Shown: positions 31,368 through 44,212 of the stretch, in pieces
How positions within the stretch are numbered: the first letter of the stretch is position 1
Layout of the letters: each line of letters starts with the position of its first letter
Assembly: GCF_001005295.1 (NCBI RefSeq)
Contig: NZ_LBMK01000001.1
Span: forward strand, 498,704 to 562,703
DNA length: 64,000 nt
DNA from: Streptomyces yangpuensis
GTDB lineage: Bacteria; Actinomycetota; Actinomycetes; Streptomycetales; Streptomycetaceae
Direction: 5' to 3'
Program-made: the position numbers and the translations under genes
The notes under the pieces: generated by a model
The model's input: the letters and a program-made list of their open reading frames with translations, nothing else
The model's database searches: none
Told to the model about the DNA's origin: nothing

Positions 31368-32264
31368 TCAACGCGGCGGTTCGGCGGCCGTTACCTGGCG
31401 GTGCGCCAGTTCCGCCAGCCGCGCCTGCCCCTCCTTGCCCGGGTGGAACCAGTCCCAGCGGCTCAACTGATCCGCCGCGAAGGGGTACTGGAACACCGCG
31501 CCGCCGTCGTAGCGGCACAGCGCGTCCTTCCCGCAGACCTCGCGCAGCACCTGGTTGTACTCCACCACCCGCGCCCGCACCTGCTCGCGCCGGGACGTCG
31601 CCCCCGTGGCCAGCGACAGCGGATCGGCGAGCATCGACTGGCAGATGCCCAGCTTCCACACCTGGCGCACCATCGGGAGGTCCTTGCCCTGCTCCCACAG
31701 CCGTTGCAGGTCGGGCACGCTGGAGACGTACACCTGGGAGGCCGGGGACGCGGCCCGCAGCTGCGCCAGGGCCTGCTCGAAACCGGACCGGAACTCCGCC
31801 ACCGGGGTCATCGACGAAGCGGTGGGCCGGCAGGCGTCGTTCGACCCCACCATCACCGTGACCAGGTCGGGCTTGTGCGCGGCGGCCGCCGCCAGCTGGC
31901 CCGGCAGGTCCGCCATCCGCGAGCCGGTCACCGCGTAGTTCCAGCTGCGCTCGGGCACCGCGGCGTCCCCGAGCAGCCGGGCGGCGAGGGAGCGGACGGC
32001 GGGGTCGTTGCCCGTGGCCCAGGAGACCTCGGGGCAGTCGGCGAGGACCGAACAGGCGTCGAATCCACGGGTGATGGAATCTCCGGCGGCCGCGATCGAG
32101 GTGGGCGCCGTGTTCCAGCGCGGCGCCGACTGTGACCCCCGCTCGCCCGGATCGGCCGGCCCGCCCGACTGACACCCGGTCAGGGTCCCGGCCAGCAGAG
32201 CGACCACCGCGCCCGCGCCCGCGAGAGCACGGCGCGCGCGGCGGCGGGCAGGGGTGGTGCGCAT
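31368..32264 (-). CDS. SGNH/GDSL hydrolase lipoprotein
   Basis: 298 residues. Arg-rich n-region, hydrophobic h-region and lipobox LTGC (Cys31) mark a lipoprotein anchored on the outer face of the membrane. SGNH blocks: GDSITRG (Ser63), VTGSRMADL (Gly), VMVGSNDAC (Asn) and DWFHPGKEG (Asp/His). It deacylates an ester, possibly on a cell-wall glycan or lipid. Single gene, convergent with the glycosidase. Confidence 0.9.
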   Translation of the reverse strand: MRTTPARRRARRALAGAGAVVALLAGTLTGCQSGGPADPGERGSQSAPRWNTAPTSIAAAGDSITRGFDACSVLADCPEVSWATGNDPAVRSLAARLLGDAAVPERSWNYAVTGSRMADLPGQLAAAAAHKPDLVTVMVGSNDACRPTASSMTPVAEFRSGFEQALAQLRAASPASQVYVSSVPDLQRLWEQGKDLPMVRQVWKLGICQSMLADPLSLATGATSRREQVRARVVEYNQVLREVCGKDALCRYDGGAVFQYPFAADQLSRWDWFHPGKEGQARLAELAHRQVTAAEPPR

Positions 32265-32514
32265 GGGAAGGACCCCTCCTTGTCGACCCCGCGTCGTCCG
32301 GGGGGTCCTGCTGAGTGAAAGCTCCGTGTTTTACCGGCCTTGGAGCGACCGTACGTCACACCAGGACCCCTGGCGCACGGTAGCTTTTTCCCGTGGCGTT
32401 TCAGCCGCAGGTCCCGTAGCGCAATGTCAGATAATTTCCGTTACATTACATCACGTCACAAACTGTCCCTTTTCTGGAGTTTATTCCCGACCTCGTCCAC
32501 CACTGGAGGTCCCG
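32265..32514. other. Intergenic region between divergent genes
   Basis: 250 bp, noticeably AT-richer than the surroundings near 32390-32480 (TTTTTC, GATAATTTCCGTTACATTACATCACG). It should carry the promoters of the lipoprotein and DUF3145 genes; no specific box could be assigned. Confidence 0.5.
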
Positions 32515-33009
32515 GTGACGACACGTGGAGTTCTGTACGTGCATTCCGCACCGCGCGCGCTCTGCCCGCACGTGGAATGGGCCGTAGCGGGCGTGCTCGG
32601 GGTGCGGGTGAACCTCGACTGGATCAGGCAGCCCGCCTCCCCGGGCACCTGGAGAGCCGAGTTCTCCTGGCAGGCCGAGGCGGGCACCGCCTCGAAGCTC
32701 GCCTCCGCCCTGCGCGGCTGGCACCTGCTGCGCTTCGAGGTGACCGCGGAGCCCTGCCCGACCGCCGAGGGCGAGCGCTACAGCTCCACACCGGAGCTGG
32801 GCATCTTCCACGCCGTCACCGGTCTGCACGGCGACATCCTGATCCCGGAGGACCGGCTGCGCGCCGCGCTGGCCCGCTCCGTGCGCGGCGAGACCGACCT
32901 GGAGGCGGAGATCTCCAAGCTGCTCGGCAAGCCCTGGGACGACGAACTGGAGCCCTTCCGCTACGCGGGCGAGGGCGCACCCGTCCGCTGGCTCCACCAG
33001 GTCGTCTGA
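32515..33009 (+). CDS. DUF3145 protein
   Basis: 164 residues, a soluble actinobacterial family of unknown function. It opens MTTRGVLYVHSAPRALCPHVEWAVAGVLG and contains WHLLRFEVTAEPCPTAEGERYSSTPELGIFHAVTGLHGDILIPEDRLRAALA. GTG start with GGAGG 6 nt upstream. It lies next to, but convergent with, the fab cluster and is separated from it by a 20-bp-stem terminator, so it is not part of that operon. Confidence 0.9.
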   Translation: MTTRGVLYVHSAPRALCPHVEWAVAGVLGVRVNLDWIRQPASPGTWRAEFSWQAEAGTASKLASALRGWHLLRFEVTAEPCPTAEGERYSSTPELGIFHAVTGLHGDILIPEDRLRAALARSVRGETDLEAEISKLLGKPWDDELEPFRYAGEGAPVRWLHQVV

Positions 33010-33030
33010 GCCGGGACGCATCCCGTACAC

Positions 33031-33074
33031 GTGAAAGGGCCCTGCACGGCGACTGCCGTGCAGGGCCCTTTCAC
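33031..33074. terminator. Very strong bidirectional terminator
   Basis: A perfect 20-bp stem (33031-33050 with 33055-33074) with a 4-nt loop GACT. The outer pairs GTGAAAGGG/CCCTTTCAC give a T-rich arm in both directions. It separates DUF3145 and fabF. Confidence 0.9.
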
Positions 33075-33085
33075 ATGGAGCCGGT

Positions 33086-34351
33086 TCAGACGCTGCGGAA
33101 CGCCAGGGTGACGTTGTGGCCGCCGAAGCCGAAGGAGTTGTTGATCGCGGAGATCGGGCCGTCGGCCGGCAGCTTGCGCGGCTCGTTCACGACGATGTCC
33201 GCGTCGATGTCGTCGTCGAGCGCGTCGACGTTGATCGTCGGCGGGGCCACGCGGTGGTACAGCGCCAGCACGGTCGCGACGGTCTCGATGCCGCCCGCGC
33301 CACCCAGGAGGTGACCGGTCATCGACTTGGTCGCGGAGATCGCGATGTGGTCGAGGTCGTCGCCCAGGACCTTGCGCAGGGCCTTGATCTCGGCCGTGTC
33401 ACCCTGCGGGGTGGACGTGGCGTGCGCGTTGACGTGGACCAGCTCGGCCGGGTCGAGACCCGTGTTGTCGAGCAGGTTCTGCACCGCGGCCGCGACACCG
33501 CGGCCGGTCGGCTCCGGCTGCGCGATGTGGTGGCTGTCCGCGGACAGGCCCTGGCCCAGCACCTCGCAGTAGACCCGGGCGCCGCGCGCCGCGGCGTGCT
33601 CGGCGGACTCCAGGACGACGACGCCCGCGCCCTCGCCCAGGACGAAGCCGTCACGCGCCTTGTCGTACGGACGGGAGGCCGTCTCGGGGCTCTCGTTGTT
33701 CTTCGACATCGCCATCATGTTGGCGAAGGCGGCGATCGGCAGCGGGTGGATCGCGGCCTCGGTGCCGCCCGCGACGACCACGTCGGCGCGGCCGGTACGG
33801 ATCATCTCGACGGCGTAGCCGATGGCCTCGGCGCCGGACGCGCAGGCGCTGACCGGGGTGTGCACGCCCGCCTGGGCGTTGACCTCGAGGCCGACGTTGG
33901 CCGACGGGCCGTTCGGCATGAGCATGGGGACGGTGTGCGGGGAGACCCGGCGCACACCCTTTTCCTTCAGTACGTCGTACTGGTCGAGCAGAGTGGTGAC
34001 ACCGCCGATACCGGAGGCGATCACGGTGCCCAGGCGGTCGGGCGCGACGGACTCGTCCTCGCCCGCCGGGGCGGTGTAGCCGGCGTCGGCCCACGCCTCG
34101 CGGGCCGCGATGACGGCGAACTGCGCCGAGCGGTCCAGCTTGCGGGCCAGCGGCCGGGGCAGGACCTCACTCGGGTCCACGGCGACCGGGGCGGCGATCC
34201 GTACCGGGAGTTCGGCGAAGCGCTCGCCCTCCAGGGGCTTGACACCGGAACGGCCGGCGAGCAGACCTTCCCAGGTCGAAGCGCTGTCGCCACCCAGCGG
34301 AGTGGTTGCGCCGATACCGGTGACGACCACGGTGCGATTGGTCGGGCTCAC
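33086..34351 (-). CDS. fabF: Beta-ketoacyl-ACP synthase II
   Basis: 421 residues, the elongating ketosynthase of type II fatty acid synthesis: condenses malonyl-ACP with acyl-ACP. Catalytic Cys170 (TPVSACASGAEAIGYA), His310 (VNAHATSTPQGD), Lys342 and His347 (SATKSMTGHLLGGAGG). The start is GTG at 34351 (VSPTNRTVVVTG); an upstream frame to 34417 is not homologous. Last gene of the fabD-fabH-acpP-fabF cluster, 79 bp after acpP, closed by the strong hairpin at 33031-33074. Confidence 0.97.
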   Translation of the reverse strand: MSPTNRTVVVTGIGATTPLGGDSASTWEGLLAGRSGVKPLEGERFAELPVRIAAPVAVDPSEVLPRPLARKLDRSAQFAVIAAREAWADAGYTAPAGEDESVAPDRLGTVIASGIGGVTTLLDQYDVLKEKGVRRVSPHTVPMLMPNGPSANVGLEVNAQAGVHTPVSACASGAEAIGYAVEMIRTGRADVVVAGGTEAAIHPLPIAAFANMMAMSKNNESPETASRPYDKARDGFVLGEGAGVVVLESAEHAAARGARVYCEVLGQGLSADSHHIAQPEPTGRGVAAAVQNLLDNTGLDPAELVHVNAHATSTPQGDTAEIKALRKVLGDDLDHIAISATKSMTGHLLGGAGGIETVATVLALYHRVAPPTINVDALDDDIDADIVVNEPRKLPADGPISAINNSFGFGGHNVTLAFRSV

Positions 34352-34430
34352 AGGAATTCTTTCTCCACGTCTCAGAGGGTGCTGAATTGTCACGGCGCCA
34401 CCGCCGGGTGGCGACAAACGCTCGTCAGGC

Positions 34431-41071: not shown

Positions 41072-41986
41072 TCAGGGGTGGCGCTTCCGCAGCACCGCGA
41101 AGGCACCCCGGACGGCGAGGGCGGCCAGGACCAGGACGACGGCCGTCTCGATGGACTGGGTCGGCCAGTAGTGCGTGACCGGGTGGTAGTCGACGTACCA
41201 CCCGGTCACGTTCATGTCCGGTGGGCACTGGCTCATGCTGCGGGTGTGCGCGAAGCAGGCCCCCTCGGGCAGGCGGCCGCCCGAGGCGGTGGTCAGTCCG
41301 AGGTCCATCATGAGGGCGTCCCTCGGCAGCTTCGGGACCCCGGGCGCCGTGGGCGTGGTGAGCGTCCGTACCGGCAGGAGGGACCACCGCAGGGCGCCCA
41401 GCACCACCATCACCAAGCCGGTGGCGAGGCCGGTGACCGCCATGGCGGCGATCGTGCGCCGTACGAGCTGGCCCACCAGCGCTCCGACAGCCACGCCGAG
41501 GAGGTAGTACGCGACGATCACCGTGCCGGTCGCCTCGTACGGCCCCCGGTCGGCCCAGTGGAACTGGTACGTGCCGTTGAGCGGCATCCAGCCGAGACGG
41601 TAGACCCCGGCCAGGGACGCCGAGCAGGCCACGGCGGCCACCGAGGCCACCGTGATCTTCGCGGCGAGCCAGGCCCGGGGTGTCGAGGACTGGGTCAGGG
41701 CGAGCCGGTAGGTGCCGCTCTCCAGCTCACGGGCGACCATCGGACCTGCGACGAAGGCCCCCACCAGCAGCGGCAGGAGCAGCATCCCGATACCGGCGAC
41801 GTCCATCGCGGACCGCAGCGGGCCGTCCGGGCTGCTCGGGTACAGGTCGGCTCCGTAGGCCGCCCACCCGCGCAGCGCGACGACGCCGGCCAGGCTCGTC
41901 GCGACGACGGCGGACAGCATCCACAGGACGCGCCGGTGCTGGCGGACGGTGACCCAGCGCGGGCCCGTCAGGATCGGCGTGCTCAT
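41072..41986 (-). CDS. ABC transporter permease (ABC-2 type)
   Basis: 304 residues, about six membrane helices: VVATSLAGVVALRG; GIGMLLLPLLVGAFVAGPMVARELESGTYRLALTQSSTPRAWLAAK (the ABC-2 coupling motif); ITVASVAAVACSASLAGV; YYLLGVAVGALVGQLVRRTIAAMAVTGLATGLVMVVLGAL; and a C-terminal helix. The long loop before it has two cysteines (GACFAHTRSMSQCP). Overlaps the ATPase gene by 4 bp and completes a GntR-ATPase-permease operon of the YtrA type, usually induced by cell-envelope stress. Confidence 0.9.
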   Translation of the reverse strand: MSTPILTGPRWVTVRQHRRVLWMLSAVVATSLAGVVALRGWAAYGADLYPSSPDGPLRSAMDVAGIGMLLLPLLVGAFVAGPMVARELESGTYRLALTQSSTPRAWLAAKITVASVAAVACSASLAGVYRLGWMPLNGTYQFHWADRGPYEATGTVIVAYYLLGVAVGALVGQLVRRTIAAMAVTGLATGLVMVVLGALRWSLLPVRTLTTPTAPGVPKLPRDALMMDLGLTTASGGRLPEGACFAHTRSMSQCPPDMNVTGWYVDYHPVTHYWPTQSIETAVVLVLAALAVRGAFAVLRKRHP

Positions 41987-42867
41987 GCCCCCACCGCCTC
42001 GGTGGCGGGAGCGAGGGCGAGGGCCGGGGCCCCGGGGGAACGCAGGTGGGCGAGCAGGATTTCCTCCAGGGACGGTTCGGCGGTCTGCCAGGTGTCCGCG
42101 TCGACGGTGCCGTGCGGTCTGGCGAGCGCGGTGAGTTGGCGGCCCGTCGTCCGTGACTCGACGACGGTGTGCGCCGCGAGATCGGCGACGGCGGTGGCGG
42201 GGCCGGTGAGCAGGCAGTGGGCCGCGAGGAGATCGTCGACGGCGCCGGAGAGACGGACCCGCCCGCCGTCGACGAGCAACAGGTGGTCGCAGGCACCTTC
42301 CAGCTCGGCGAGGATGTGCGAGGACATCACCACGGACGTGCCGTGGTCGGCGGTGTCGGCCATCAGCGCCCCCATCAGCCGGTGCCGGGCCAGCGGGTCG
42401 AGGTCCGCCATCGGTTCGTCCAGCAACAGCAGCCGGGGGCGCTTGCCGAGGGCGAGGGCCAGGGCGACCCGGGTGCGCTGGCCGCCGGAGAGGGACCGGA
42501 TCCGGACGCTGCCGTCGAGCCCGCCCTCCCCGACGATCCGCTCGGCGCTCTTCGCGTCCCAGCGGCCCGGGTTGAGCTCACGTCCCATGCGGAGGGTCTC
42601 GTCCACGGTCAGCTGCGGATAGAGGGGCTTGTCCTGGCCGACGTACGCCATCTCCTCGCGCGGCGGTGCGCCGATGGTGCCCTCGGTCGGCCGGAGCAGG
42701 CCCGCGGCGAGCGCCAGCAGGGTCGACTTGCCCGCGCCGTTGGGGCCGACGAGCGCGCACACGCGGTGGGCAGGCAGCCGGAAGGAGCAGTCGCGCAGGG
42801 CCCAGCCGCGCCGTCGTGCGTAGCGCACGCCCAGCCCCGTCGCCTCGATCACCGGATCGTCCGTCAC
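41983..42867 (-). CDS. ABC transporter ATP-binding protein
   Basis: 294 residues. Walker A GPNGAGKSTLLALAAGLLRPTEG, Q-loop YVGQDKPLYPQL, signature LSGGQRTRVALALALG, Walker B LLLLDEPMADLD, H-loop VVMSSHILAELEGACDHLLLVDGG. Partner of the downstream permease. Overlaps the GntR gene by 4 bp (42864-42867) and the permease by 4 bp, so all three are translationally coupled. Confidence 0.95.
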   Translation of the reverse strand: MTDDPVIEATGLGVRYARRRGWALRDCSFRLPAHRVCALVGPNGAGKSTLLALAAGLLRPTEGTIGAPPREEMAYVGQDKPLYPQLTVDETLRMGRELNPGRWDAKSAERIVGEGGLDGSVRIRSLSGGQRTRVALALALGKRPRLLLLDEPMADLDPLARHRLMGALMADTADHGTSVVMSSHILAELEGACDHLLLVDGGRVRLSGAVDDLLAAHCLLTGPATAVADLAAHTVVESRTTGRQLTALARPHGTVDADTWQTAEPSLEEILLAHLRSPGAPALALAPATEAVGA

Positions 42868-43259
42868 GTGTCGTCCCCCTTGAAGTGTTGGTCCAGTACG
42901 GAAGTGAAGAGCGCGGCCACGTCGTCCCGTTCCATCCCCGCGGCGCTCGCGCGCCGTGCCCAGTCGGCCAGTTCCGCGCGCAGGGGCGAGTCGGCCGGGG
43001 CACCCCCCAGGGACCTGCGCACGAAGGTGCCCATGCCCCGGCGTCCCTCCACCAGGCCCTCGCGCTCCAGCTCCCGATAGGCCTTGAGCACCGTGTTCGG
43101 GTTGATGGCCGTCGCCTCGACGACCTCGCGCGCGGTGGGCAGCTGATCGCCGGGTGCGAGCAGGCCCAGGCGCAGCGCCTGCTTGGTCTGGTGGACGATC
43201 TGCAGGTAGGTGGCCATGCCGCTGCGCCGGTCGATGCGGTACTCCAGCACGTCCAGCAC
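42864..43259 (-). CDS. GntR-family repressor, YtrA type
   Basis: 131 residues. Winged HTH ATYLQIVHQTKQALRLGLLAPGDQLPTAREVVEATAINPNTVLKAYRELEREGLVEGRRGMGTFVRR with only a short C-terminal helical tail, the YtrA subfamily. It heads an operon with an ABC ATPase and permease and is presumably its repressor. Start choice is open: GTG at 43259 (VLDVLEYRI) lies inside the inverted repeat, while GTG at 43250 (VLEYRIDRRSG) has AAAGG 9 nt upstream within the repeat. Confidence 0.92.
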   Translation of the reverse strand: MLDVLEYRIDRRSGMATYLQIVHQTKQALRLGLLAPGDQLPTAREVVEATAINPNTVLKAYRELEREGLVEGRRGMGTFVRRSLGGAPADSPLRAELADWARRASAAGMERDDVAALFTSVLDQHFKGDDT

Positions 43260-43294
43260 CCTTTCACTAGTTAAGTAGTGAAAGGGTGCTGGAC
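43251..43294. promoter_or_regulatory. Perfect 19-bp inverted repeat at the GntR operon head
   Basis: GTCCAGCACCCTTTCACTA (43251-43269), 6-bp centre GTTAAG, exact reverse complement at 43276-43294. It occupies the start and the expected promoter of the GntR-ABC operon. As RNA it would also form a terminator-like hairpin for the upstream minus-strand gene. Confidence 0.8.
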
Positions 43295-43342
43295 GGGGCG
43301 CCGCATGTCAACGGGCGTTATCGCCGGGCGCGTCGAGGAAGG

Positions 43343-43378
43343 CTGGTGCGACTGGTGCGACTGGTGCGACTAGCGCGA
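43343..43378. repeat. Four tandem 9-bp repeats spanning a stop codon
   Basis: CTGGTGCGA three times (43343-43369), then the variant CTAGCGCGA (43370-43378). On the minus strand the repeats read Ser-His-Gln codons, and the variant supplies the TAG stop of the DUF4429 gene. Confidence 0.8.
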
Positions 43379-44212
43379 CTCGGCGGCGAAGCGGTCCCGG
43401 AGGGTGGCGTACTCGACGTCGGTCAGAAGGCCGGCCGAGTAGAGCTCGCTCAGGTGCCGCAGCCGCTCGTCGCCGGAGCGGCCGCGGGCGGCGGCGACCG
43501 GGGTGCGGCTGCGCGTGGCGGCCAGGACGGCCGCGGCGAACGGCAGTGACTCGTGCACCGCCCCGTAGCCCACGCCGAAGACGGCCGTCGAGAGGTCGTG
43601 GTCGGGGCGGGGGTCGGCCGGGGTCTGCTGGGGCTCGCGCAGCAGCAGCCGCAGGTGACCGCCCGCGCCGCCCGGGGAGCGCCATTCGACGTCGGCCAGC
43701 TCGGCCAGCGGGTACTGCTGGTCGCCCGCCTTCCACTTCGTGCCCGTGGCGCCGGTGCGCGACCAGTGGAAGACGACCGAGGAGCCGTCGAAGGCCACCC
43801 GCGCGTCGTGCGCCTTCAGCTGGAGCGGCGGCTCCGGTACGTCGACCAGGAAGTGCGGGGCCGGCTCGGCGGCGTCCGGCCCGAGCCGCGAGCGCAGGGC
43901 GGCGGCGAAGGCCGCGGCCGATGTCGCGCGCTCGCCCGGCAGCACCATCCGGTACGGGTCGCACGCCTCCTTGAGCTGACCCGCGGCGGCCTCCATCAGC
44001 GGATCGGCGCCCGGGCGCGGGACGGCACGCAGAACCACCGTGTCCCGCCTTCCGGCGGTCACGGTCACGGTGGACACCGCTTCCAGGGGAATCCGGCGCG
44101 AACCCAGTGCTTGCCACAGTCTCGGCGTTCGCATCCCCCGTGCGAAGCGGATGAGCACCGAGTCCGAGTCGAACTCCCAGACGGCATGGTTTCCGGCCAG
44201 TACGTCACCCAT
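43370..44212 (-). CDS. DUF4429 protein with C-terminal SHOCT domain
   Basis: 280 residues. N-terminal DUF4429 repeats (MGDVLAGNHAVWEFDSDSVLIRFARGMRTPRLWQALGSRRIPLEAVSTVTV, second copy near LQLKAHDARVAFDGSSVVFHW) are pleckstrin-homology-like beta folds; the C-terminus GDERLRHLSELYSAGLLTDVEYATLRDRFA is a SHOCT helical hairpin, which usually mediates oligomerisation. Function unknown. The first in-frame ATG is 44221; I use 44212 because MGDVLAGNHAVWEF is the conserved-looking start. The 3' end merges into tandem 9-bp repeats. Confidence 0.78.
   Translation of the reverse strand: MGDVLAGNHAVWEFDSDSVLIRFARGMRTPRLWQALGSRRIPLEAVSTVTVTAGRRDTVVLRAVPRPGADPLMEAAAGQLKEACDPYRMVLPGERATSAAAFAAALRSRLGPDAAEPAPHFLVDVPEPPLQLKAHDARVAFDGSSVVFHWSRTGATGTKWKAGDQQYPLAELADVEWRSPGGAGGHLRLLLREPQQTPADPRPDHDLSTAVFGVGYGAVHESLPFAAAVLAATRSRTPVAAARGRSGDERLRHLSELYSAGLLTDVEYATLRDRFAAESR

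Follow-up and report, generated by a model that had tools for sequence, protein, structure and literature searches.

Regulators of the YtrA subfamily of GntR proteins typically control a single ABC transporter operon through one long palindrome, and the form GT-Nx-AC fits many, though not all, GntR motifs, as set out in the portions of Suvorova et al. (2015; PMC4494728) drawn on here. In the sections used of the report on YtrASa, an autorepressor of Sulfolobus acidocaldarius (PMC6746942), transcription starts at the centre of the regulator's sites, a 14-bp core lies in a 32-bp repeat within an archaeal promoter, and binding is strengthened by additional half-sites beyond the core. The same sections quote GGTG-N16-CACC as the site of a YtrA-like regulator of Xanthomonas citri.

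We analysed a stretch of 64,000 nucleotides from Streptomyces yangpuensis (the window), in which a long dyad adjoins a gntR-ATPase-permease operon. Sequence comparison makes it very probable that this dyad is the autoregulatory operator of the YtrA-like GntR repressor encoded by the first gene. The features are listed below by position in the window.

41072 to 41986, minus strand: ABC-2 type permease (PF12698; present in 101 of 109 loci)
41983 to 42867, minus strand: ABC transporter ATPase (PF00005; present in 108 of 109 loci)
42864 to 43250, minus strand: YtrA-like GntR-family regulator, 128 amino acids from the GTG at 43250 (PF00392)
43248 to 43250, minus strand: GTG, most likely the true gntR start, rather than 43257 to 43259 (orthologue comparison)
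43250 to 43295, minus strand: 46-bp dyad with 20-bp exact arms around GTTAAG, proposed GntR operator (sequence and homologue conservation)
43260 to 43265, minus strand: GAAAGG, proposed Shine-Dalgarno sequence (SD), 9 nt upstream of the start codon and within the downstream arm (sequence and orthologues)
43261 to 43284, minus strand: inner 24 bp (offsets 1 to 12 on either side), CTTTCACTA-N6-TAGTGAAAG, the most conserved core (homologue comparison)
43274 to 43278, minus strand: probable region of transcription initiation, close to the dyad centre (from the −10 position)
43283 to 43288, minus strand: CACCCT, proposed −10 (CANNNT) with a 17-bp spacer, within the upstream arm (homologue comparison)
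43306 to 43311, minus strand: TTGACA, proposed −35, which begins 39 bp from the centre of the dyad (TTGAC at 39 or 40 bp in 108 of 144 loci)

The locus shares with the YtrA subfamily, as portrayed in the portions of PMC4494728 drawn on, a small GntR protein whose C-terminal part is short, the pairing of its gene with an ABC transporter and one long palindrome preceding a single operon, and the contacts predicted there at 4–5 and 8–9 from the centre match, in our reading of its numbering, the invariant TA at offsets 4–5 and the C/G at offset 8. Unlike the YtrA motifs given in those portions, the half-sites here read CACTA..TAGTG, with AC before GT; the order AC..GT (CACTA-N6-TAGTG) likewise departs from the GntR-family form GT-Nx-AC, which counts against a GntR operator. 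As with YtrASa in the sections cited (PMC6746942), a probable autorepressor would act at a site that overlies the transcription start and has it at its centre, and the extra half-sites of YtrASa are a further likeness to the dyad; unlike the YtrASa repeat, the dyad has a core of about 24 bp within 46 bp that also contain the proposed −10 and SD. The X. citri regulator, as quoted there, is similar in having a long spaced inverted repeat and a small GntR protein, but the half-site order is opposite and the spacing different. Within this known kind, the dyad stands apart by its reversed AC..GT order and by outer arms that are long and symmetric. A literature search, covering mostly titles and abstract openings and subscription journals thinly, found no published report of the site.

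Direct reading of the sequence together with a repeat search placed the arms at 43250–43272 and 43273–43295, complementary at 22 of 23 positions with no gap. The dyad is real and far beyond chance: the longest exact arm (loop 0–10) was 20 in the window versus 9 to 14 in 50 first-order Markov windows. An earlier note on this DNA had described a perfect 19-bp repeat at 43251–43294; the repeat and its 6-bp centre stand, but the note missed one pair, since the exact arms (43250–43269 and 43276–43295) are 20 bp long. It had rightly seen that the repeat abuts the operon start, as the dyad adjoins the minus-strand gntR and overlaps its start codon, at 43250, by one base. The window has more than one long dyad: at 33028–33077 another pairs at 22 of 23 positions around a 4-nt loop and may be a terminator because it is placed between converging genes (a plus-strand ORF at 32254–33009 and a minus-strand ORF at 33086–34417).

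The reading frames of gntR, the ATPase and the permease share 4 bases at each overlap, with gntR first. The regulator has a GntR winged helix-turn-helix at its N-terminus (PF00392, E 3.2e-15), followed in the 128-residue protein by about 48 residues, a length that, as the only property compared, fits the two-helix C-terminal domain of about 50 residues in YtrA. Its PDB matches were mostly small GntR proteins (e.g. 3neu, 4ham), and a search of NCBIfam returned no model at its cut-off. Two further marks of the YtrA subfamily were found, namely an operon with an ABC transporter and a single-operon regulon (ATPase in 108/109 and permease in 101/109 loci; one exact core site), and a long palindrome with conserved bases far from its centre. 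The next gene upstream is a same-strand gene for a DUF4429 protein; its end, at 43370, is about 75 bp short of the dyad. Of 109 loci, 103 of which had at least 1200 nt of upstream flank, one had this gene in that flank, while the ATPase gene followed gntR in 108, which argues that the dyad belongs to the gntR operon.

Homologous loci, 150 in all, came from three sources: the best 80 of 304 Streptomyces relatives, the locus of the window itself, and 69 loci out of 296 genomes drawn from the class. Of these 296 genomes, 60 gave matches at E≤1e-25, 76 in number, and 70 of the matches were examined, the window's own among them; the Streptomyces loci lean to close relatives because they are the best 80 of 304. 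A dyad caller anchored on the core found a dyad upstream of 144 of the 150 gntR genes versus 17 of 750 Markov copies, that is, 94/94 versus 8/470 where identity was at least 72% and 50/56 versus 9/280 among distant homologues. By this rule six of the 150 loci (L116, L123, L131, L137, L139 and L160) had no dyad, which counts against the operator reading; they were left out of later counts. The 144 dyads comprise 126 distinct 46-mers, 76 from homologues with at least 72% identity and 50 from those below. Since the choice of centre uses offsets 4–12, the pairing figures of this caller are biased and were not used as evidence. A first caller went to a different dyad in several loci (L013, L044, L059 and L107 among them) and was replaced by this one; in these four loci a separate GC-rich dyad lies across TTGAC just before the operator and may end upstream transcripts. 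Pairing was complete at offsets 4–20 in 33 of the 144 loci, the window's included, and among these L121, L122, L134 and L169 have quite different arm sequences. The dyad had been called exceptional for an operator; such sites recur in related bacteria, and this one, though clear, is an ordinary case of a familiar type.

The gntR start had been left ambiguous between 43259 and 43250, and orthologues favour the latter. Among the 94 orthologues with at least 72% identity, the place of 43250 held a start-like codon in 91 (GTG in 76, ATG in 15), and that of 43259 in just 22. Counting against 43250, an in-frame start-like codon occurred within 8 codons upstream in 74 of the 94. The distance from dyad to start fell into all three classes modulo 3 (58, 21 and 15 of 94), so the stretch between them is not kept in frame. 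The AAAGG previously noticed in the arm is likely the SD of the 43250 start: GAAAGG stands 9 nt before it, and its spacing to a start at 43259 would be nil. The commonest spacing in the orthologues, 12 nt (40/94), is long. We conclude that gntR most likely starts at 43250, not 43259.

A conserved promoter (TTGAC, a spacer of 17–18 bp and CANNNT) appears to lie under the dyad. Of the 144 loci, 129 had an upstream TTGAC, and in 108 the distance between its first T and the centre was 39 or 40 bp; YANNNT followed at spacer 17/18 in 114 of the 129, as CACCCT in 88. CACCCT belongs to the conserved arm as well, so diverged operators give a better test of the −10. In the 25 distinct distant loci with TTGAC at 38–43 bp, YANNNT at spacer 17/18 occurred in 20 versus 1.9 after shuffling, and in 16 of 21 versus 1.6 once the CACCCT carriers were removed; the hexamer occupied a fixed place, 16 to 11 bases before the centre, in 18 of the 25 and was absent from it in 7, which counts against the reading. 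Two more points do so, as a consensus scanner called no promoter and CACCCT makes a poor −10 hexamer. A stem around the −35, tallied in 58 of 91 orthologues with no shuffle control, was given no weight. Transcription starts about 7 nt past the −10, which by this general rule would put the start near the dyad centre. The dyad had been said to lie over the promoter and start codon, and the geometry agrees: the upstream arm contains the putative −10, the downstream arm contains the SD, and the probable transcription start is close to the centre.

In the mechanism that we propose, a GntR dimer would bind the core CTTTCACTA-N6-TAGTGAAAG, and because this core overlies the −10 (CACCCT, upstream arm) and the probable transcription start, the bound repressor would keep RNA polymerase off; the downstream arm would also supply the GTG at 43250 with its SD, GAAAGG, and some signal would presumably release the repressor. 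Sequence comparison supplies the conservation, the promoter geometry, the start codon and the one gene-tied site per genome, and from these we infer protein binding, repression and the transcription start point.

Conservation was strongest in the core. In the 76 distinct sites with at least 72% identity, positions −16 to −2 and +4 to +18 were almost invariant; in the 50 distant sites the near-invariant part was reduced to CTA-N6-TAG, and the TA at offsets 4–5 was nearly invariant even there. One distant group (L142, L147, L149, L150, L157, L159, L162, L164 and L165) has another upstream motif, roughly CTAAAGTNCTAGGANACTAGATAAATGGAG, with the same CTA-N6-TAG core. The outer arms of distant homologues diverge in sequence yet remain symmetric to an offset of about 20. 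With shared descent uncorrected throughout, distant sites paired at offsets 13–17 in 146 of 250 cells versus 89 re-dealt (0/5000 shuffles), at offsets 18–20 in 59 of 150 versus 40 (1/5000) and at offsets 21–23 in 56 of 150 versus 49 (464/5000); the corresponding figures for orthologues, likewise uncorrected, were 357 of 380 versus 346 (0/5000), 139 of 228 versus 128 (21/5000) and 96 of 228 versus 90 (477/5000). The pairing excess therefore fades past an offset of about 20. A single dimer typically covers 24 bp, and symmetry that continues past offset 12 goes beyond this, which counts against the operator reading. Template switching between arms is a source of paired changes, and one could envisage that the core is the operator and that the outer symmetry is kept by such mutation rather than by selection. 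Paired double changes did occur in 35 sister pairs (6 at offsets 13–17 and 3 at offsets 18–22), as when the window is compared with L001 (91% gene identity), where G-C became C-G at offset 20; however, single breaking changes were commoner (16 and 36, respectively), and the double changes are also explained by selection with an unseen intermediate. We regard this origin of the outer arms as unlikely.

The symmetry past offset 12 would also be expected if the dyad were both operator and translational insulator, such that read-through RNA, having both arms, would fold and conceal the SD, and RNA made from the operon's own promoter would begin in mid-dyad and be freely translated. As RNA, the full dyad gave −40.1 kcal/mol (z −8.8). 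Because the promoter places the start near the dyad centre, the operon's own mRNA would hold one arm and no hairpin; an RNA starting at 43274 did not form the dyad hairpin (−9.5 kcal/mol, z −0.30) and left most of GAAAGG unpaired. The upstream gene of the window is codirectional, and in the unthinned set codirectional neighbours went with slightly longer arms (19.7 versus 18.2). Against this, arm mismatches showed no G-U preference (sense-strand wobble 10, antisense 8 and other 16 in orthologues; 14, 21 and 51 in distant homologues), and after thinning, with neighbour direction called by a crude GC3 rule, pairing was alike for 45 codirectional and 26 opposite upstream neighbours (p 0.71; outer part p 0.64). 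An RNA role is thus unsupported, since there is neither a G-U bias nor a dependence on upstream gene direction, and the dyad most probably acts as DNA. The SD-hiding hairpin suggested previously is not supported for the operon's own mRNA, given the single arm that this mRNA would have and the missing G-U bias, although a hairpin in read-through RNA is possible. The insulator is accordingly a doubtful addition to the operator, and we give as little weight to the triple role that would follow from it, in which the dyad is the operator, mirrors the −10 and the SD in its arms and senses the origin of RNA so as to shield the operon from upstream transcription. If true, selection for this triple role would explain symmetry to about 20 bp, past the footprint of one dimer.

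Returning to the operator reading, the site and the regulator gene go together. The window's own genome has CACTA-N6-TAGTG once exactly and 6 times with one mismatch, the pattern read backwards 48 times, and its other 15 GntR-like matches have identities of at most 41%. All 14 Streptomyces genomes with an orthologue of at least 72% identity had one CTTTCACTA-N6-TAGTGAAAG site (at most 2 mismatches) beside the gene; of 14 without such an orthologue, one (G133) had a site, located elsewhere. When 3 mismatches were allowed in the 28 genomes, further sites appeared in G073, G133, G252 and G277. A near-identical perfect dyad, CACTACAGATGTAGTG (either strand), is found in G133 (contig 1, 6778737–6778760), where it is not beside that genome's gntR homologue, and in G277 (contig 1, 5476140–5476163). 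Mutual information between amino acids and bases in 39 thinned homologues gave many correlated positions, uncorrected for descent, and was set aside. That another regulator reads the dyad, rather than the adjacently encoded GntR protein, is very improbable, given that site and gene occur together in 14/14 genomes, that almost all genomes lacking the gene lack the site, that there is one site per genome, and that site divergence follows protein divergence. The earlier note's proposal of a GntR binding site is very probably right, the dyad being conserved and a gene-linked single site. The same note had offered an RNA hairpin ending transcription of the upstream gene, to which the strong stem and the same-strand gene ending about 75 bp before the dyad might point, but this is scarcely credible, as the dyad persists though the DUF4429 gene occurs in just 1 of 109 loci, no T-run follows the stem, the conserved core expected of an operator sits in the loop and stem top, and no terminator-like sites were called in 42800–43500.

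An uncharacterised ABC transporter present in many Streptomyces thus gains a well-defined predicted operator and promoter for its regulator, with the gntR start codon most likely settled. The homologous sites, with arms that changed together, form a natural operator series that would be useful for learning how YtrA-like repressors read long dyads.
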